Translations under genes and position numbers: made by a program | In this document: positions 3,300 to 24,585 of the stretch, piece after piece | Layout of the letters: the number at the start of each line of letters is the position of its first letter | Numbering within the stretch: the stretch's first letter is position 1 | The notes under the pieces: model-generated | What the model was told of the DNA's origin: nothing | What the model saw: only the letters and a program-made list of their open reading frames with translations | Databases searched by the model: none | Source: a virus | IMG/VR virus record: IMGVR_UViG_3300050821_011919 | Location: 1-25,711 of that record | Direction: 5' to 3' (one strand) | Length of the DNA: 25,711 nt

Positions 3300-3497
3300 A
3301 TGCCAGCCGTTTCCCAGAAGCAGCAAATCGCGATGGCCATTGCGGAACACGCGCCCGATAAGCTCTTCGCGCGGAATCGAAGCCTACTCGGCATGAGCCA
3401 TCAGCAGCTTCACGAGTTCGCGTCGACGCCGCGGAAGAATCTGCCGAAGCGCGCACCGAAGGCCAAATCTCGCAACCAAGCGTTCTACGGCGCATGA
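3300..3497 (+). CDS. DUF3008-like small phage protein, AFYG tag
   Basis: The 65-aa protein starts MPAVSQKQQIAMAIAEHAPDKL and has MSHQQLHEFASTPRKNLPKR in the middle. The pairing of an N-terminal MPAxSxxQQ helix with a later L-x-x-F-A-S-T-x-x-x-x-L-P motif matches DUF3008-type small proteins, whose role is unknown. It ends KSRNQAFYGA, putting AFYG one residue from the C-terminus. The ATG lies behind ATTTTC rather than a Shine-Dalgarno site, six bases after the previous stop. The ATG of the next gene overlaps its TGA (ATGA at 3494-3497). Confidence 0.8.
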   Translation: MPAVSQKQQIAMAIAEHAPDKLFARNRSLLGMSHQQLHEFASTPRKNLPKRAPKAKSRNQAFYGA

Positions 3498-3721
3498 GCG
3501 TTCTCCGCCCTCTCGGCTTCTCGAATCCCGGTATGCCCGCGGTGGGCGTCGCGCTCGAAGTCGATTGCCCCGTGTGCCAAGTTCCGGCCGGAGCGAAATG
3601 CGCCGTCAGTAACGGCGAGCGTATTGTTTTGCGCCCGCCCCACGTCGAGCGCGGCCGCAACGCCCGCTGGTCCTCTATGTTCCCCAGCGAGACGATGTAC
3701 CCGAGCGAGAAGACCCTGTGA
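3494..3721 (+). CDS. Phage zinc-finger protein (CPxC...H type)
   Basis: This 75-aa protein has VDCPVCQVPAGAKCAVSNG followed by PPHVERGRNARW. The arrangement CPxC-x6-C ... H-x2-R is the small phage zinc-finger domain often annotated as DNA-binding. The ligands would be Cys-Cys-Cys-His, giving one zinc knuckle; the remainder is short and polar. It is translationally coupled on both sides (ATGA with the upstream gene, GTGA with the terminase gene). Its position directly before the terminase nuclease suggests, but does not show, a role in packaging or in recognising DNA. Confidence 0.75.
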   Translation: MSVLRPLGFSNPGMPAVGVALEVDCPVCQVPAGAKCAVSNGERIVLRPPHVERGRNARWSSMFPSETMYPSEKTL

Positions 3722-4776
3722 ATCCGGCCAATACCAGCTTCCCGCACCCCGGCATCCAGGTGCACAAAAACCAGCACGGCATCACGTGCATGCGCCTGCA
3801 CTACGACGCCGACCCCAATAAGGGCAAAGGGAAAAAGACCTTCGTTCCGGCCATCAACATGGAACTCTCGCCCTGGGCCCTGAAGCAGTACGAGCAGATG
3901 ACCGACCCCACGCTCTACCTGCGCGAGTACGAAATTCAGGCGGAGGCCACGCTCGGCTCGCTGATCTACCAGATGGACGACGAAGCCACGCTCGAAAAAA
4001 GCTTCCCGATCCCACCGACCTGGACCCGGCGCATGTCGCTCGATCCTCATCCCAGCGTGCCACATGCGTTTCTTTGGTGCGCGACCGACCCCTGGGGCGA
4101 TCGCTGGTACTACCGCGAGCTGTGGCCCTCGAAAGTTTGCTTCCGCTATGACGGCCTGCGACTGCTCGGGGCAAGCGGGCCGTGCCCTCCGGACGATCCC
4201 GTGGTGCGCATCAAGGATTATGTCGAAACCGTGAAGTGGCTGGAGTCTTCGGAGAATCCGGAGAACGTCGACGCCAAGGCCAACCGCTTCGACGAAACAA
4301 TCTTCGCCCGCGTCATCGACTACACCGCGCGCGCCTTCGGCAAAGGCACCAACGACGATCCCGAGCAGCCGAACTTTCAAACCCGCTACGAGCAGTACAT
4401 GAGCCTGCCCGACACACGGCTCTCCTGCCCGCTGTTCCAGGATGCGAAAAAAGACCACGACGTGGGCTTCGAGATGGTCAACGCCGGGCTGAAGCCGCGG
4501 CGGACGGTCGGTTCCGACGACAAGCCGCGGAAACGCTCGGCGATTCACATCTTCGCCGACAAGTGCCCCGAATTGATCTGGCAGATTCGGAATCTGCGCC
4601 GCGCCCGCCTCACGCCGGCGCAAGCGACGCAGAAAGACCCCAGCGGCAAAGCGGTCCAGGTCCGCGCCCACCAGTGCGACAACCTGCGCTACATCGAGAT
4701 GTCGAACCCGATCTACATCGCGCCCTCGAAGCCGTGGCCGAAGCAGAGCCGGCTGGCGGAAGGGTTCAGCTACTAG
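3718..4776 (+). CDS. terL (C-terminal domain): Terminase large subunit, nuclease domain only
   Basis: The 352-aa product corresponds to the part of a large terminase after the ATPase. It opens with the linker typical of TerL (ITCMRLHYDADPNKGKG, then LYLREYEIQAEATLGSLIYQ) and continues into an RNase H-like nuclease: LWCATDPWGDRWYYRELW (Asp about 124), RVIDYTARAFG (Asp about 201), SAIHIFADKCPELIWQIRNL and HQCDNLRYIEM (Asp about 321, the usual third acidic position). There is no Walker A, Walker B or coupling motif, and complete TerL proteins are usually 450-650 aa. The GTG start overlaps the zinc-finger stop, so the gene is genuinely short here. The ATPase half must lie outside this window or be supplied separately. 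Function: cutting the DNA concatemer during packaging. Confidence 0.8.
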   Translation: MNPANTSFPHPGIQVHKNQHGITCMRLHYDADPNKGKGKKTFVPAINMELSPWALKQYEQMTDPTLYLREYEIQAEATLGSLIYQMDDEATLEKSFPIPPTWTRRMSLDPHPSVPHAFLWCATDPWGDRWYYRELWPSKVCFRYDGLRLLGASGPCPPDDPVVRIKDYVETVKWLESSENPENVDAKANRFDETIFARVIDYTARAFGKGTNDDPEQPNFQTRYEQYMSLPDTRLSCPLFQDAKKDHDVGFEMVNAGLKPRRTVGSDDKPRKRSAIHIFADKCPELIWQIRNLRRARLTPAQATQKDPSGKAVQVRAHQCDNLRYIEMSNPIYIAPSKPWPKQSRLAEGFSY

Positions 4777-12296: not shown

Positions 12297-12485
12297 GTGC
12301 CCGTGCCGAAACTGAAGATCGATCGCGCGCACTCGCTCGCGCTGCTTGCGGGCAAACCTGTCACCGTGAAGATTCCGCCCAACGCGAAAGCGATCACGCT
12401 TCTCCTTGATATGCCGAACGTATCCGCCGATCTCGACAGCCTCGCCAAAGTGATCGACGTATTTTTCAACGGGAGGAAAGCTTAA
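12297..12485 (+). CDS. Small hypothetical protein, 62 aa
   Basis: GTG start at 12297, with a second GTG at 12303 also possible; the sequence before it (GTCTTCCTCT) is pyrimidine-rich without a Shine-Dalgarno. The product (KLKIDRAHSLALLAGKPVTV, then KIPPNAKAITLLLDM and LDSLAKVIDVFFNG) looks like a compact alpha/beta protein. It abuts the next GTG directly (TAA then GTG). No family recognised. Confidence 0.65.
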   Translation: MPVPKLKIDRAHSLALLAGKPVTVKIPPNAKAITLLLDMPNVSADLDSLAKVIDVFFNGRKA

Positions 12486-14989: not shown

Positions 14990-17668
14990 ATGCTGAAGCC
15001 AGTCGACACCTACCCCGCCGGGGGAGTGGATTCCCGCTCGAACCCGGTGAACATGCCGCCCGGGCGGTATCTGTTCGTGCGCGATTTCTGGCCGCAACAG
15101 GACGGCAGCTTCCGGCTTCGCGACGGCTACTCGCTCTACACCGCGGGCGTGCAGTCGAACGTTTCGATCTATTCGATCACGCCGGTCGTGGGCCCCGGGC
15201 CGGACTATAAGCCGCTGATTGTTTTCTGGCAGGACAAGGTTCCCTACACCTACGATCCGTTTGGCGGAACGATTACCTCGCCGACGGTGAAGGGCGCAGT
15301 GATCGCCTCCAGTGCACGCTGGACCTACTTCTATACCAACGGACACTTGCACGCCTTCAACGGCACCGATGCGAAGTGGTACGACGGGGTGTACTGGCGC
15401 GATATCGGTTTGCCCACGCTGACGGCCGCGCAGCTGGCGACCATCAACGTCGTTACCGGGCTTGAAGCCATTACGCCCACGGAGGCGGCATCGGCCACGC
15501 TGGCCTTTGGCGCGGGCGGCTCCTGGAGCGGAGTGACGGCCAGCCTGGTTTACTTCGCCTTCTTCGATCGCGCGACGAATCTGCTGATGGCTTCCTCGCT
15601 CCCGCTCAGCGCAGCGCTGATCAACAATTCCGCCAGCGGCCAGCAGTTGAACGTCGGCAACCTGCCCACCAATCCCACTGCAAGCGTGGTCGGACTTCTC
15701 GCGCTGAATGTGAACGGCGGACCGGGCGCGAGTTTCGTCATTCCCGCGCCCTCTTCGGTCGCAGGCAGTATGACCGCCGCGGGAACCACGGTCACCGTCG
15801 ATGCGCCCGGACACGGATACACCACCGGCGACGTCGTGGTCATCGACGAGTCCGGCTTCACCTGGCCCACCAACGGTCCCTTCGCCGTCACGGTGATTGA
15901 CGCCAATCACTTCAGTTTTCAGAGCCCGGATGCGGCCAGTTACGTCACGGGTTCCTCGATCGCCTTCGTCAAGCTGCAGGTGGTGCCGAACGGAACCACT
16001 TCGGCGGTCATCGCGGATAACCTCACGGCGCCTGGTCAGGGAACAGCGACCAGCGCCAGCGGAGAGATTCTCCTGCCCTACGAAGACGCGCCCGGCTCGA
16101 ATGGAATTCCGGCGTCTTCGATCGGCGGCGCGCAGCCCGGCTATCAGCTCTACGCTTCGATCTACAACCCGACGACGGGACACGTCGGCAACCGGCAACC
16201 CCTCGGGATTCGCATCGCAAACACGGGAAACGCCGTGTTCCTGCTCTCCGGCCTGCCTTCTCTTACGGACTCCGAGTGGGTGCTGCTGATCGGCCGAACC
16301 TCGGACGGCGCGGAAATTCCTTACGCGATCGACGACGTGAATGGCAACTGGATTACCACCGCATCGAACACGGCCACTTCGCTGAGCATCACGTCCTCGA
16401 CGATCGACGGCAATTCCGAACTGCCCTCGCGCAACTACCCGCCTCCGGGAACACTCGATTACAACTACCAGCTCTCGCTTTTACCCGGCGGATCGGCGCA
16501 GAATCCTCCGGTCTCGGGCACGTTCTTTGCAGCATGGGTGGAATCGGATCACTGCTGCGGAGTGTTCAACGGCCAGCCCACCATCTATCGCTCGGGCTCC
16601 GCGCTCGACATGCGCGAAGGCGTGTTTGTCGGACTGCCAGAACAGTGCTGGGACCCGGCCGACATCGAAACCTTTCCGACCGGCGCGCCGATCACCGGCG
16701 GACAAGGCTACCAGGGGGAGAGCTGGGTCTACAGCATCACCGATTGCGCCGTGCTGATGGAGCTTGCGGGCGAGACCAGCTGGCAAGGGCCGTGGAACGT
16801 GGGACTCGCGGGACAGTACGCCTGGACGCGGGGTTGGCAGAACATGCCGTTCTGGATCACCGGAGAAAAGCAGCTGGCTACGGTCTCCAGCGGCGGCTAC
16901 CTGCAGATGGGCGGCATGACGACGAACGCGGCCTCCGGTCCGATCATCATCTCCGACGAATACGAAGCGGCGCTGCTCTCGCAGATCGGCAGCAACTACC
17001 TGAGCGAGACCGAAGTTCTCTACATCCGCAAACCCGCCGAGCGCGTCGAAGTCCTGCGCATCCACGCCCGCGACGTCAACGGGAACCCGCTCACCATCAT
17101 CCATGATTTCAACTTGCGAGACGGCAACAGCCCCTACGGGCAAGGCTACATGGAAGCCTTTCAGGGAGAGCTGGGAGAGAATCCGGCCCCAACGTTTGCC
17201 GTGGTACGCGATCAGAGCTGGCAGCTGCAGGTCCTCGCCGGGGCGAAGGACGGCAACCTCTACGAACTGTATTCGGGCAGCAGCGACGACGGCACGAACT
17301 TCACCGCGCAGGCCCTGGGCCTGATCTACATCGGCCCGGAGCGGACAGCGATTAAATATCTCGAATGGTACGGCGACCAGAACGCGGAATTTTTCATCAC
17401 TTCGGATTTAACCATCCCGTTCGATTCCTCGCAGATGGAAGCGCTGTGCGTCGACACGCCCGATGCAGTCCAGGGAGACGAGAAAGCCCAGCACTGGACG
17501 GTTGACATCTCGAAGCCGGAGATGATTCACGCCTACCTGCTGCTGCAGCTGAAATCGCATCCGGCGGATGGCAGCGTAGCCTTGAACTCGCCGCCGCATA
17601 TTCCGCTCGAAAGCTACGGGAGAGTATGGCTGGTGACTCCGCTGGCAGGAGTCAGCCGGGGAAAGTGA
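14990..17668 (+). CDS. Tail nozzle / DNA-stabilisation-like protein, 892 aa
   Basis: The start, PAGGVDSRSNPVNMPPGRYL followed by FVRDFWPQQDGSFRLRDGYS, is the pattern of podoviral tail proteins of the P22 gp10 / T7 gp12 kind (GG...n...l......N......G.l..R.G). The protein is beta-rich throughout with repeated W/Y-containing blades (WTYFYTNGHLHAFNG, WVYSITDCAVLMELAGETSW, MPFWITGEKQLATV), consistent with a beta-propeller platform. About residues 255-330 carry an inserted module (APGHGYTTGDVVVIDESGF, then PFAVTVIDANHFSFQSPDA) of the 'HG..tGD.V.i.G' type seen in many tail proteins. The ring it forms would close the tail tip. No Shine-Dalgarno; a pyrimidine-rich leader precedes it. Confidence 0.72.
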   Translation: MLKPVDTYPAGGVDSRSNPVNMPPGRYLFVRDFWPQQDGSFRLRDGYSLYTAGVQSNVSIYSITPVVGPGPDYKPLIVFWQDKVPYTYDPFGGTITSPTVKGAVIASSARWTYFYTNGHLHAFNGTDAKWYDGVYWRDIGLPTLTAAQLATINVVTGLEAITPTEAASATLAFGAGGSWSGVTASLVYFAFFDRATNLLMASSLPLSAALINNSASGQQLNVGNLPTNPTASVVGLLALNVNGGPGASFVIPAPSSVAGSMTAAGTTVTVDAPGHGYTTGDVVVIDESGFTWPTNGPFAVTVIDANHFSFQSPDAASYVTGSSIAFVKLQVVPNGTTSAVIADNLTAPGQGTATSASGEILLPYEDAPGSNGIPASSIGGAQPGYQLYASIYNPTTGHVGNRQPLGIRIANTGNAVFLLSGLPSLTDSEWVLLIGRTSDGAEIPYAIDDVNGNWITTASNTATSLSITSSTIDGNSELPSRNYPPPGTLDYNYQLSLLPGGSAQNPPVSGTFFAAWVESDHCCGVFNGQPTIYRSGSALDMREGVFVGLPEQCWDPADIETFPTGAPITGGQGYQGESWVYSITDCAVLMELAGETSWQGPWNVGLAGQYAWTRGWQNMPFWITGEKQLATVSSGGYLQMGGMTTNAASGPIIISDEYEAALLSQIGSNYLSETEVLYIRKPAERVEVLRIHARDVNGNPLTIIHDFNLRDGNSPYGQGYMEAFQGELGENPAPTFAVVRDQSWQLQVLAGAKDGNLYELYSGSSDDGTNFTAQALGLIYIGPERTAIKYLEWYGDQNAEFFITSDLTIPFDSSQMEALCVDTPDAVQGDEKAQHWTVDISKPEMIHAYLLLQLKSHPADGSVALNSPPHIPLESYGRVWLVTPLAGVSRGK

Positions 17669-17679
17669 AGAGTCACTAC

Positions 17680-17695
17680 GCGGCGAGCGCGCCGC
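17680..17695 (+). other. Short GC hairpin after the tail gene
   Basis: GCGGCG-AGCG-CGCCGC forms a 6-bp stem with a 4-base loop, 11 bases after the stop at 17668. There is no T-run, so a terminator call is weak; it may be an mRNA processing or stability element between the tail gene and the ATPase gene. Confidence 0.35.
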
Positions 17696-17711
17696 TTGAT
17701 ACCCTTCAGTC

Positions 17712-18752
17712 ATGAGCAGCGACGAAGACCAACTCAACGAATTACTGGCGAAGGAACCGGAGCCGCGCAAACCGCGGCGGGGCGACGAGCCGAACAAAGA
17801 GGACGTAGTACAGCCGTCGACGCCGACCGCGAGCATGGCGCAAGGTGTGGACTATTGCCAGTGGAGCTCCGGACCAAATGACACGTTTCGTCCGAGCGGT
17901 CCGCGGCGGGAAAAACTGCCGAGCGGCATCTACACCGTCGACAGCGATCAGATGGGACCCTACTTCATTCGCACCAAGGTCGTCACGGATAACCTCATCG
18001 AACTGGACGATGCGGCAACGGCGCGCGTGCTCTCTTCGCTGCGAAAGTTCTGGAAGTCGCGCGCGCAGTATCAAAAGCGCGGCGTGCTCTACAAGCGCGG
18101 CCTTCTGCTCTGGGGCCCGGCGGGAAGCGGCAAGACGGCGACTCTCGGCCTTTTGATGGCGGAACTGCTGCGCATGGATGGGCTGGTTTTTATCTGCCAG
18201 AATCCGGCGCTGCTGAGCACAATGCTTTCAGTCCTTCGGCGCATCGAGCCCGAGCGAAATCTGATCGTGGTCCTCGAAGACATCGACGAGCTGGTCCAGC
18301 GCTTCGGCGAACATGATCTGCTGGCGCTGCTCGACGGCGAAACCCAGATCGACAATGTCGTGAACATCGCGACGACAAATTATCCGGAACGGCTGGGCGC
18401 GCGCATCGTGAACCGTCCCAGTCGCTTCGACGAGCGCATCCTGGTCGGGATGCCAAACCCTCCAGCGCGCGAGAAATATCTGCGCCACATCACGCGGCAC
18501 GAGAACATGCCGGATAAGATGCTCGCCCACTGGGTCAAGAAAACCGATGGCTTCAGCGTGGCCCACTTGCGCGAACTCGTGATCGCAGTGTTCTGCCTCG
18601 ATCAATCGTTCGAGGAAGTGCTGGAACGGCTCTCGAAGATGCAGTTTCAGCCGCGGCCGCTGAAAGAGTTTCTGCGCCCCGCACCTCCCGGATTCGCACC
18701 GCAGAATGAAGGCGGCGCTTTAACAGGAGCCGGCACAAGCGCCAGTCGATAA
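17712..18752 (+). CDS. AAA+ ATPase of BCS1-like type
   Basis: The first 60 residues of this 346-aa protein are charged and probably disordered. The AAA core then shows Walker A GPAGSGKT (135-142), Walker B VVLEDIDEL (about 187-194), sensor 1 NIATTNYPERL, an arginine-finger region VNRPSRFDERI and sensor 2-like GFSVAHLREL. The LEDID form of Walker B, rather than DEID, is characteristic of the BCS1 branch. The last 35 residues are Pro/Gly-rich. No protease, nuclease or membrane segment is attached, so it should be a remodelling or unfolding ATPase, probably hexameric. It sits between tail genes, an unusual place; roles in assembling or loading internal proteins, or in countering a host system, are only ideas. 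No Shine-Dalgarno before the ATG. Confidence 0.85.
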   Translation: MSSDEDQLNELLAKEPEPRKPRRGDEPNKEDVVQPSTPTASMAQGVDYCQWSSGPNDTFRPSGPRREKLPSGIYTVDSDQMGPYFIRTKVVTDNLIELDDAATARVLSSLRKFWKSRAQYQKRGVLYKRGLLLWGPAGSGKTATLGLLMAELLRMDGLVFICQNPALLSTMLSVLRRIEPERNLIVVLEDIDELVQRFGEHDLLALLDGETQIDNVVNIATTNYPERLGARIVNRPSRFDERILVGMPNPPAREKYLRHITRHENMPDKMLAHWVKKTDGFSVAHLRELVIAVFCLDQSFEEVLERLSKMQFQPRPLKEFLRPAPPGFAPQNEGGALTGAGTSASR

Positions 18753-18755
18753 GTC

Positions 18756-19253
18756 GTGAAGTCCTTCATCCAATCGATCGCGGGCGCCAACTACGCCCAA
18801 CGCGCCGTCGAGAAATACAACATGGCCGCGCAGATTCGCCAGCGCGGCACGCCGCAAAATGCGATGCCACCGCGGGATATCCAGGTGCAGTCCGCGGCCG
18901 GAGGGGTCCAGGTCAGCTGGAAGCTTCCCACCTCGCACGACAACATCGCCGGCTGGCGCATCTACGTGAACAACGAATCGAATCTCGCGGCGCAGATTCG
19001 CGACAAGGGTACGCGGCAAATGTTTATCCCGCTTGGATCGAGCAGCAGCCCGTCGCCGGCGAATATCATGGTTTCTTCGTTCACCACGCTCGGTCGGGAA
19101 AGCTCGAAAGTGGTGAAGCAGGGCACGCCGAACACGCAATCAGCAACGACAACGGTTCCAACGGTGCCACCCGGTTATGACGCGGAGTCGGCCGGCGGCG
19201 TGAACCGCGGCCTGATCCGCTTCAATGGCGAATCGCAGTACGTGCACTCGTAA
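18756..19253 (+). CDS. Fibronectin-III-like domain protein, 165 aa
   Basis: GTG start three bases after the ATPase stop. After a helical N-terminus (SFIQSIAGANYAQRAVEKYN) comes a single Ig-like beta-sandwich: PPRDIQVQSAAGGVQVSWKL, then DNIAGWRIYVNNES, GTRQMFIPL and IMVSSFTTLGRESSKV. The W of VSWKLP and the Y of WRIYV occupy the usual FnIII positions. The last 50 residues are Thr/Pro-rich and end near GLIRFNGESQYVHS. FnIII/Ig-like modules in phages decorate heads and tails and bind carbohydrate, so this is most likely a virion surface protein. Confidence 0.65.
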   Translation: MKSFIQSIAGANYAQRAVEKYNMAAQIRQRGTPQNAMPPRDIQVQSAAGGVQVSWKLPTSHDNIAGWRIYVNNESNLAAQIRDKGTRQMFIPLGSSSSPSPANIMVSSFTTLGRESSKVVKQGTPNTQSATTTVPTVPPGYDAESAGGVNRGLIRFNGESQYVHS

Positions 19254-19796: not shown

Positions 19797-20342
19797 ATGG
19801 GCGGCGGACCGAGCTCCACTCAAAAAGCAGCGCAGCAGCAGCAGCTCTCGAACGCGCAACAGGAAGGCCAGCTCGCCGGACAAAGCGGGCAGGAGTTCCA
19901 GTCCCTCTACGGCCAGACCTCGCCGTTCTACACCGGGGAGATGACCAACGGACTTCCCTTCTACAACAACCTGACCGACTTCGCTTCGGGAACCACGGCG
20001 CAAGCCTACGCGCCGGCGAAAGCCGCGTATCTGCGCAACGAGTCGACGATGGGCGCGCTGCCCTCCGGTTCGAAGGCCGCGGGCATGAACGACATCAACG
20101 AAGCGGAAGCGAAGAATTTCGACTCCACGTTGACCGGCAACATGTTCGCGCAGCAGCAGGCGAAGCAGCAGGGAGCCGCGGGACTCTCCGGGCTGATGCA
20201 GACGGTCAATCCGGCCGCGTTCTACGGCGGATCGAGTTCGGCCGCGCAGGGAGCGACGCAACCGCTGCAGGCGCAGCAGAATCCCTGGATGGGCATTCTG
20301 GGCGGCGCGATCTCGGGAGCGGCCAAGGCAATTCCGTTCTAG
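19797..20342 (+). CDS. Putative internal virion/ejection protein 1 (MGG family)
   Basis: The 181-aa protein begins MGGGPSSTQKAAQQQQLSNA and is Gln/Ala/Gly-rich and helical. It contains TSPFYTGEMTNGLPFYNNLT, AYAPAKAAYLRNESTMGALP, QQQAKQQGAAGLSGLMQTV and a Gly/Ala tail. I recognise the pattern 'MGGGP.stQ.aa......Q' with 'GLPFYn.LtD' from uncharacterised phage proteins downstream of tail genes. Composition and place suggest ejection (P22 gp7-like) proteins, but this is inference. The AFYG peptide occurs here internally (residues 141-144, NPAAFYGGSS). GGGGAA precedes the ATG. Confidence 0.65.
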   Translation: MGGGPSSTQKAAQQQQLSNAQQEGQLAGQSGQEFQSLYGQTSPFYTGEMTNGLPFYNNLTDFASGTTAQAYAPAKAAYLRNESTMGALPSGSKAAGMNDINEAEAKNFDSTLTGNMFAQQQAKQQGAAGLSGLMQTVNPAAFYGGSSSAAQGATQPLQAQQNPWMGILGGAISGAAKAIPF

Positions 20343-20391
20343 CAGTTTGGTCAAATCAATTTTCGGAAGAGCAGTTTCGGAGAACACAGTC

Positions 20392-20664
20392 ATGGGCGGA
20401 TCACTGGGCGGGGCTTTCAGCGGGCAGGGACAGGGCGCAAACGGCGGGGGAAGTTTCCTGCAGAACCTGATTCAGGGCACAACCAAAGGCGCGCTCACGG
20501 CCGCGGGCAACGGCTTGCAGAAACAGCCCACGCCACCGAACGGTGGTACGCCTCCCTCTCCGGCTCCCACTCCGGTCGATCCGCGGTTCTTTCAGCCCAC
20601 GGCGGCCCCGGCTCCTGCAGGCGGCGGGTACGGCGGTTCGCCCTCGTCCGCGTTCTACGGCTAG
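20392..20664 (+). CDS. Gly/Pro-rich small protein ending exactly in SAFYG
   Basis: Starts at ATG 20392 (MGGSLGGAFSGQGQGANGG) with GGAGA upstream; a TTG at 20347 is in frame but less likely. A short helix (SFLQNLIQGTTKGALTAAG) is followed by a Pro-rich linker (PPNGGTPPSPAPTPVDPRFF) and a Gly/Ala/Pro tail ending SPSSAFYG, the last residue being the Gly of the shared tag. 90 aa. It resembles 24298-24585 in composition and tail. A virion-associated small protein is the inference; no homology recognised. Confidence 0.65.
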   Translation: MGGSLGGAFSGQGQGANGGGSFLQNLIQGTTKGALTAAGNGLQKQPTPPNGGTPPSPAPTPVDPRFFQPTAAPAPAGGGYGGSPSSAFYG

Positions 20665-24206: not shown

Positions 24207-24296
24207 ATGAAACTCCGTTTCTCTTCCCCGCTGATTTCCGGGCTGACCTTTGCCTTGATGCTCGTGCTCTGCGCAGTCTTTGCAGGAGGAAATTAA
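24207..24296 (+). CDS. Tiny single-span membrane peptide, 29 aa
   Basis: ATG at 24207 gives MKLRFSSPLISGLTFALMLV, then LCAVFAGGN and TAA. Positively charged start, a 17-20 residue hydrophobic run and a small polar end form a type I or signal-anchor pattern, too short for a complete secreted protein. The last codons (GCA GGA GGA AAT TAA) contain the AGGAGG used by the next gene, which suggests coupling. The role could be a small membrane or lysis-accessory peptide, or only a leader that brings ribosomes. Confidence 0.45.
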   Translation: MKLRFSSPLISGLTFALMLVLCAVFAGGN

Positions 24297-24297
24297 C

Positions 24298-24585
24298 ATC
24301 GGAGGAACCTTAGGTCCGAAGTCGTTTCCCTGGCCGTCAACGATCGGCGGATCGCAGGCTGCTTCCCCGCTGACTCAGTCCATGGCGCCGGGCCAGGTCG
24401 GCGGAACTTCCGCGTCTTCGAGTGCAGCTCCAACATCGACCCTGCAGCCGCGCGCGAGCATGCCGCAAGCTCCGCCCCAGGCGCCGCTCGCTCCGATCGC
24501 CGGACCGACCGCGCCGAATCTGCCCATCCGGAGCCCGCTTGCGGGCCTTGGCGTTCCACGCTCGTCTTCGGCCTTCTACGGATAA
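24298..24585 (+). CDS. Pro/Ala/Ser-rich small protein ending in SAFYG; apparent ATC start
   Basis: A perfect AGGAGG (24284-24289) is followed by eight bases and ATC GGA GGA, which would read MGG if the third base were G, the same beginning as three neighbours. The only usual start in frame, TTG at 24280, lies upstream of the ribosome site and gives a different N-terminus. The protein (95 aa) contains TLGPKSFPWPSTIGGSQAAS, an Ala/Pro-rich middle (MPQAPPQAPLAPIAGPTAP) and ends VPRSSSAFYG, the shared tag at the very end. An ATC (AUC) start, or a single-base change of ATG, is the likely explanation. Confidence 0.6.
   Translation: MGGTLGPKSFPWPSTIGGSQAASPLTQSMAPGQVGGTSASSSAAPTSTLQPRASMPQAPPQAPLAPIAGPTAPNLPIRSPLAGLGVPRSSSAFYG

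Follow-up and report, generated by a model that had tools for sequence, protein, structure and literature searches.

What is a gene for a chaperone-type AAA+ ATPase doing among the tail genes of a phage? The locus lies in the window, i.e. the whole stretch of DNA analysed, which is an entire IMG/VR record and a linear fragment of 25711 bases. The phage looks short-tailed, as judged by an SU10 adaptor match in Pfam. According to the original prediction, the gene encodes a Bcs1-type ATPase embedded among tail genes and tightly followed by an FnIII-like gene; it may belong to an assembly, loading or anti-defence mechanism, and could be the reader of an AFYG tag carried by other proteins of the window. 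The gene and its motifs are as follows:

17712..18752, plus strand: phage AAA+ ATPase, Bcs1/YjoB type, 346 aa (ORF, Pfam PF00004, PHROG 7485, AlphaFold2 model, Foldseek and VIA)
17859..17981, plus strand: small beta region near the N-terminus (residues about 50-90), bearing the signature W...F.P....LP.G.Y of the family (model strands, alignment conservation)
18114..18137, plus strand: Walker A GPAGSGKT, residues 135-142 (G135, G138, G140 and K141 each 64/64)
18267..18293, plus strand: Walker B VVLEDIDEL with ED pair, residues 186-194 (E189 and D190 each 64/64)
18363..18380, plus strand: sensor 1 NIATTN, residues 218-223 (N223 64/64)
18414..18425, plus strand: arginine-finger region RPSR, SRH arginines R235 and R238 (each 64/64)
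18687..18695, plus strand: C-terminal phi-G-F site at residues 326-328, which reads P-G-F in the window and lies in a tail modelled with low confidence (G 62/64, F 59/64)

The ATPase ORF is open throughout, has an ATG start and scored 46 bits with Pfam AAA PF00004 (cut-off 21.2). The PHROG 7485 profile matched its residues 74-267 (8.2e-23, 82 bits), as well as all 64 members of a family alignment from which duplicates, proteins longer than 400 aa and the copies L003-L007 had been removed. The Walker A lysine, E189, D190, N223, R235 and R238 are invariant in this alignment (64/64), and the N-terminal signature is kept across two family alignments (A1 and A2). The AAA+ motifs are thus intact as originally described, no nuclease or protease is attached, and the place is indeed unusual for such an ATPase. 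In 62 of the 64 members, the Walker A lysine and the Walker B glutamate are separated by a short span of 47-48 residues, which hints at a Bcs1-like rather than a threading action. No compositional sign of recent foreign DNA was observed, since both GC (0.608) and GC3 (0.746) are within the values obtained for those other window genes that were measured (0.607-0.625 and 0.71-0.838, respectively).

An AlphaFold2 model calculated from the 64-member alignment (mean pLDDT 86.4) displayed an N-terminal beta region at residues 50-90 (strands E50-54, E58-62, E72-79 and E82-88), then the AAA core and, past residue 310, a tail with little order. With this model, the best Foldseek rows were Bcs1 (6u1y, 6.1e-14) and YjoB (7w42, 2.0e-13). 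In VIA, the Z scores of YjoB (18.7) and Bcs1 (18.0) were less than 1 apart and thus tied, and only modestly above those of other classical AAA proteins (about 16 for AFG2 and proteasomal ATPases); the alignment to YjoB covered 234 residues with an rmsd of 2.9. By plain sequence comparison, Cdc48, AFG2, YjoB and Bcs1 were all alike in similarity; YjoB was matched in a single stretch with 72.6 bits. With Bcs1 and YjoB ranked first by both Foldseek and VIA, the predicted kinship of the window ATPase with the Bcs1 branch was confirmed at the level of the modelled fold.

The structural match starts at residue 65-70 (VIA). Bcs1 (6u1y, 6sh3, 9gsn) shares with the window ATPase the AAA core fold and the Glu-Asp order of Walker B (E189-D190). 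In contrast to Bcs1, which has an N-terminal transmembrane helix, no transmembrane segment was evident in the window ATPase by hydropathy scan (highest 19-residue Kyte-Doolittle mean 1.56), and the Pfam family of the Bcs1 N-terminal domain was not found in it at E values up to 0.1. With no transmembrane segment evident, a Bcs1-like membrane translocase is not indicated. A 19-residue Kyte-Doolittle window above 1.6 was present in 9/64 family members, some of which may carry a hydrophobic stretch. Bacillus subtilis YjoB (7w42, 7w46), a chaperone and the best VIA match, has the same AAA core and the same ED Walker B. In the best alignment, in which model residues 65-309 were placed on YjoB 150-404, about 150 YjoB residues precede the matched part, compared to about 65, partly disordered, in the window ATPase; with chain 7w46, model residue 55 was aligned onto YjoB residue 47, at a lower Z (VIA).

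Other phages also carry AAA ATPases. Those of Schitoviridae show PHROG 2376-like similarity; one of them, Erwinia phage Frozen gp37, is 26% identical over 60% of the protein, is encoded in a different genome region and has a tail without phi-G-F. Bcs1 orthologues from jumbo phages have already been reported (Iyer et al. 2021, PMC7824862). They are Bcs1-type AAA+ proteins occurring sporadically across phage groups, as does the window copy; the latter differs in lying on a 25.7 kb fragment and in a variable tail-region slot, the comparison being one of groups and not of single members. PHROG 7485-type relatives from phages of 462-595 kb can be aligned with the window ATPase over the N-region and the AAA domain. 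Phage Bcs1 orthologues are already in print (PMC7824862); the present analysis adds the occupied or empty slot, the spread of the gene to phages that are otherwise unrelated, and a phi-G-F tail in common with YjoB. The slot is delimited by two flanking genes:

14990..17668, plus strand: large protein of the tail region (892 aa), flanking the slot upstream (70% identity in G003 and 58% in G006)
17669..18755, no strand: variable slot with the ATPase gene, 1087 bp (blastn against G003, slot lengths, FnIII gene positions)
18756..19253, plus strand: FnIII-like protein of 165 aa, flanking the slot downstream and also conserved where relatives have no ATPase
L096 12733-13137 and 13141 onward: contents of the G003 slot, a 134-aa ORF and a small ORF

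As originally described, only 3 bases lie between the ATPase ORF and its successor, which begins at 18756. The FnIII-like label of this second ORF is weak (Pfam fn3 16.4 bits for a cut-off of 25; best solved chain E 0.11). The tail role of the 892-aa protein follows from its position, its family matches (Pfam, PHROG) being only weak. Relatives of the window phage were gathered through the major capsid protein (five contigs, 91-96% identity) and through the large tail-region protein. None of the five was matched in a search with the ATPase profile. Two of them, G003 and G006, both contig fragments, span the site, and the same two contigs alone were recovered with larger alignments of both flanking proteins. 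The FnIII-like gene is kept in both (86% and 69% identity). The slot of 1087 bp in the window is reduced to 622 bp in G003, where it harbors other small ORFs, and to 4 bp in G006, where the FnIII gene begins 4 bases after the end of the tail-region gene, i.e. the slot is empty. Consistently, blastn similarity between the window and G003 broke off where the upstream gene ends and was regained at the start of the FnIII gene. One small ORF of the G003 slot is akin to the window gene 12297-12485 (41%, E 6.6e-16 when just these two sequences were compared), indicating that small genes change places in this phage group.

The ATPase gene is thus physically embedded among tail genes, as predicted, but this arrangement is not ancestral: both site-spanning relatives are without it, and the gene is not in the tail module by descent. 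Coupling to the FnIII-like gene was rejected, since that gene is kept where the ATPase is absent. The slot between the two tail-region genes is a place to seek further accessory genes in this phage group.

The AFYG tag could be examined in the same relatives. Its copies in the window are:

983-1726, 1920-2135, 3300-3497, 20347-20664 and 24280-24585: ORFs with AFYG at or near the C-terminus
20217-20227: internal AFYG copy

The AFYG coding pattern gave 6 DNA matches in the window compared to 0.11 expected, a number reached in 0/100 shuffles, and 5 of the 6 are at an ORF C-terminus. ORFs ending in xFYG were observed in 4 of the 5 ATPase-less relatives. Conversely, the flanks of the other ATPase loci (81 loci, 1.44 Mb in total, rather than whole genomes) contained no ORF with a C-terminal AFYG. 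The tag is real and independent of the ATPase, and a function of the ATPase as its reader was rejected.

To what extent, then, is the gene shared with other phages? An alignment search of IMG/VR retrieved 399 places for the ATPase family, among which 80 were kept, with carrier contigs of up to 395 kb; a phage collection added three uncultured phages (462-595 kb) and Xanthomonas phage phiXF1. The closest relative among the matches listed is 71% identical and lies on a 4.2 kb fragment; the next closest among the best 80 of the 399 are about 45-53% identical. The major capsid protein and the portal of the window were absent from 23/23 of the nearest ATPase-bearing contigs, many of them fragments, in a search where both positive controls were found. 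The gene therefore moves between otherwise unrelated phages. When 2446 ORFs from 86 loci were clustered, no cluster beyond the ATPase occurred in more than 14 of the 86 loci (the ATPase ORF itself was recovered in 82, those of L015, L022, L029 and L070 being lost at the ORF-overlap filter). In a tree of 118 rows, the window ATPase grouped with L002 (100) within a 15-row phage clade (SH-aLRT 95). Of the counter-case named in the original prediction, a host ATPase acquired sporadically and not co-occurring with its neighbours, the lack of co-occurrence was borne out; the phage clade, in a tree with one cellular row only, does not show a host-derived ATPase. A pattern scan of genome_contigs with patterns of the window protein alone, which may miss close host kin, returned one relative.

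The immediate neighbours of the ATPase gene are mixed. Out of 122 neighbours, 100 were scanned, the ones omitted by hand being chiefly ORFs that were short or on the opposite strand; we found topoisomerase II (5/100), DNA polymerase PHROGs (up to 4/100) and glycosyltransferase (6/100). In L016-L021, the gene abuts a nicotinamide phosphoribosyltransferase gene just upstream (L016: NAPRTase 2e-49, NAMPT_N 2.2e-31). Structural genes surround other copies. In L025 (9131-10930, identical in L026), a single protein combines the AAA domain with a further domain (310 aa, unknown fold); its gene lies in a run of structural genes, after a terminase-like gene and ahead of the one for a major head protein. 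This 310-aa domain matched 0 Pfam families and one PHROG family of unknown function; outside the two identical contigs it had no relatives, and phage records gave no match. The idea, raised by eye, of a prohead protease in this N-terminal domain found no backing in these searches, and a single-sequence model was meaningless (pLDDT 34.8). In phiXF1_14 (L007 4764-8780), the AAA domain ends a protein of 1338 aa encoded beside tail-fibre genes, the first 1079 residues of which gave no PHROG match. In L002, the ATPase gene adjoins terminase-like ORFs, as judged by eye.

In the otherwise variable C-terminal tail of the family, [ILMVF]G[FL] was present in 55/64 members, compared to 2.3 expected by tail shuffling. 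An out-of-sample set (53 of the 80 kept members, sharing less than 90% identity with the first set and among themselves) gave 44/53, with 1.6 expected by shuffling. By comparison, 59 of 1070 control tails (last 25 residues of ORFs of at least 150 aa from the same loci) carried the motif. Its start is located 10-17 residues past the core in 97/99 cases. B. subtilis YjoB, which ends in KVGF plus one residue, has the same C-terminal motif. A literature search covering part of the literature returned no description of this tail. In the wider family, the tail probably docks a partner. The window ATPase itself carries P-G-F, in which the hydrophobic residue is lost, and fails the motif test. The motif resembles a known docking signal: that of Clp ATPases for ClpP is given as (L/I/V)-G-(F/L) (PMC8745299). 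The strict tripeptide [LIV]G[FL] was found in 32/64 and 28/53 tails compared to 43/1070 control tails, and in half of the family motifs the first place is occupied by Met, Phe or another residue. This likeness is a resemblance, not a demonstration. ClpP-family genes occurred in 18/49 carrier contigs, a count with no matched control and hence not evidence, because many phages encode prohead proteases that are ClpP-like.

We consider it fairly probable that the locus represents a horizontally acquired accessory gene in a variable tail-region slot, encoding a soluble, single-domain, ring-forming and ATP-driven AAA+ chaperone or remodeller. The gene sits between two conserved tail-region genes, where it would have arrived by horizontal transfer. 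Its motifs, its modelled fold, its place in a widespread phage family akin to Bacillus YjoB and mitochondrial Bcs1, the empty or otherwise filled slot of the relatives and its carriage by unrelated phages were all observed here. The product is presumably soluble and composed of a single domain. By analogy with this family, the subunits would assemble into an ATP-driven ring, which may chaperone or remodel a folded protein or complex, of phage or host origin, in the infected cell. Across the family, the phi-G-F tail at the C-terminus would dock a partner. A wrong link, that of a tail-module ATPase reading a phage tag, is in this way replaced by a testable picture, that of a mobile chaperone-type motor picked up by unrelated phages. 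Should phi-G-F serve for docking, a candidate partner would be at hand for hundreds of phage proteins as well as for a Bacillus protein of solved structure.

The main alternative is a virion-assembly factor, i.e. a Bcs1-like chaperone or translocase that would assemble or load virion proteins. We regard it as rather unlikely, though it has to be reckoned with. A membrane-proximal role of this kind in virion assembly was proposed for jumbo phages by Iyer and colleagues (PMC7824862), and the structural-gene contexts of the window, L025/L026, phiXF1 and, by eye, L002 favour assembly and speak against the accessory reading. It is opposed by the mixed neighbours elsewhere (topoisomerase II, DNA polymerase, glycosyltransferase, and nicotinamide phosphoribosyltransferase in L016-L021), by the absence of the ATPase from both slot-spanning sister phages, which have the same tail genes, and by the lack of a Bcs1 N-domain. 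Membrane-proximal translocation as put forward there (PMC7824862) is not directly supported for the window copy, because no transmembrane segment is evident. A defence or counter-defence ATPase akin to IetA is far less probable. IetA, of the IetAS anti-phage system, is the best PADLOC match (2.6e-10) and shares a classical AAA similarity with the window ATPase, and nicotinamide phosphoribosyltransferase, next to the ATPase in L016-L021, is a kind of gene implicated in counter-defence. Identity with IetA was rejected, however, since the NCBIfam IteA model gave 32.2 bits for a cut-off of 510 and generic AAA similarity is equally high; moreover, no subtilisin-like IetS-type protease was found among the ten window proteins scanned by Pfam, a subset of the window ORFs. 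As for an AFYG reader acting together with the FnIII-like protein, physical adjacency is what speaks for it; the tag and the FnIII gene both occur in relatives without the ATPase and the other 81 ATPase loci are without the tag, which leaves it with virtually no chance.

An unfoldase or decoy docking on ClpP, in which the phi-G-F tails of the ring would occupy the hydrophobic pockets of a ClpP of host or phage origin and proteolysis would be redirected or blocked by the phage, is improbable in our view, though less so than the IetA-like ATPase. The enrichment of the strict tripeptide, its agreement with the published motif (PMC8745299), the VGF plus one residue at the end of YjoB and the uncontrolled count of ClpP-family genes are consistent with it. 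The departures at the first motif position and the P-G-F of the window copy are not; in addition, the motif of Clp ATPases is an internal loop and not a C-terminus, the near-constant spacing of phi-G-F fits packing on the ring itself too, and the short Walker A-Walker B segment leaves room for a missing threading pore loop, as in Bcs1. A report linking YjoB and ClpP was not found in a literature search of limited scope. The broadest version, in which YjoB-type AAA+ rings of phages and Bacillus would be unrecognised ClpP partners or decoys, docking by the C-terminal phi-G-F instead of an internal loop, and in which phages would spread their genes as accessories that divert or inhibit proteolysis in the infected host, is a slightly longer shot still.

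Two further observations were made in passing. At 3718-4776 of the window, the nuclease half of a terminase appears, by eye, as a separate ORF; relatives have it too, as ORFs of 352-356 aa; no Pfam match was obtained, nor was an ATPase half located. On a Lindowbacteria contig (L003 11117-12178, minus strand), a YspA/SLOG-family gene is located just beyond the AAA gene, and 6 loci contain a cluster akin to it, in most cases at a distance of 1.3-1.8 kb from the ATPase.
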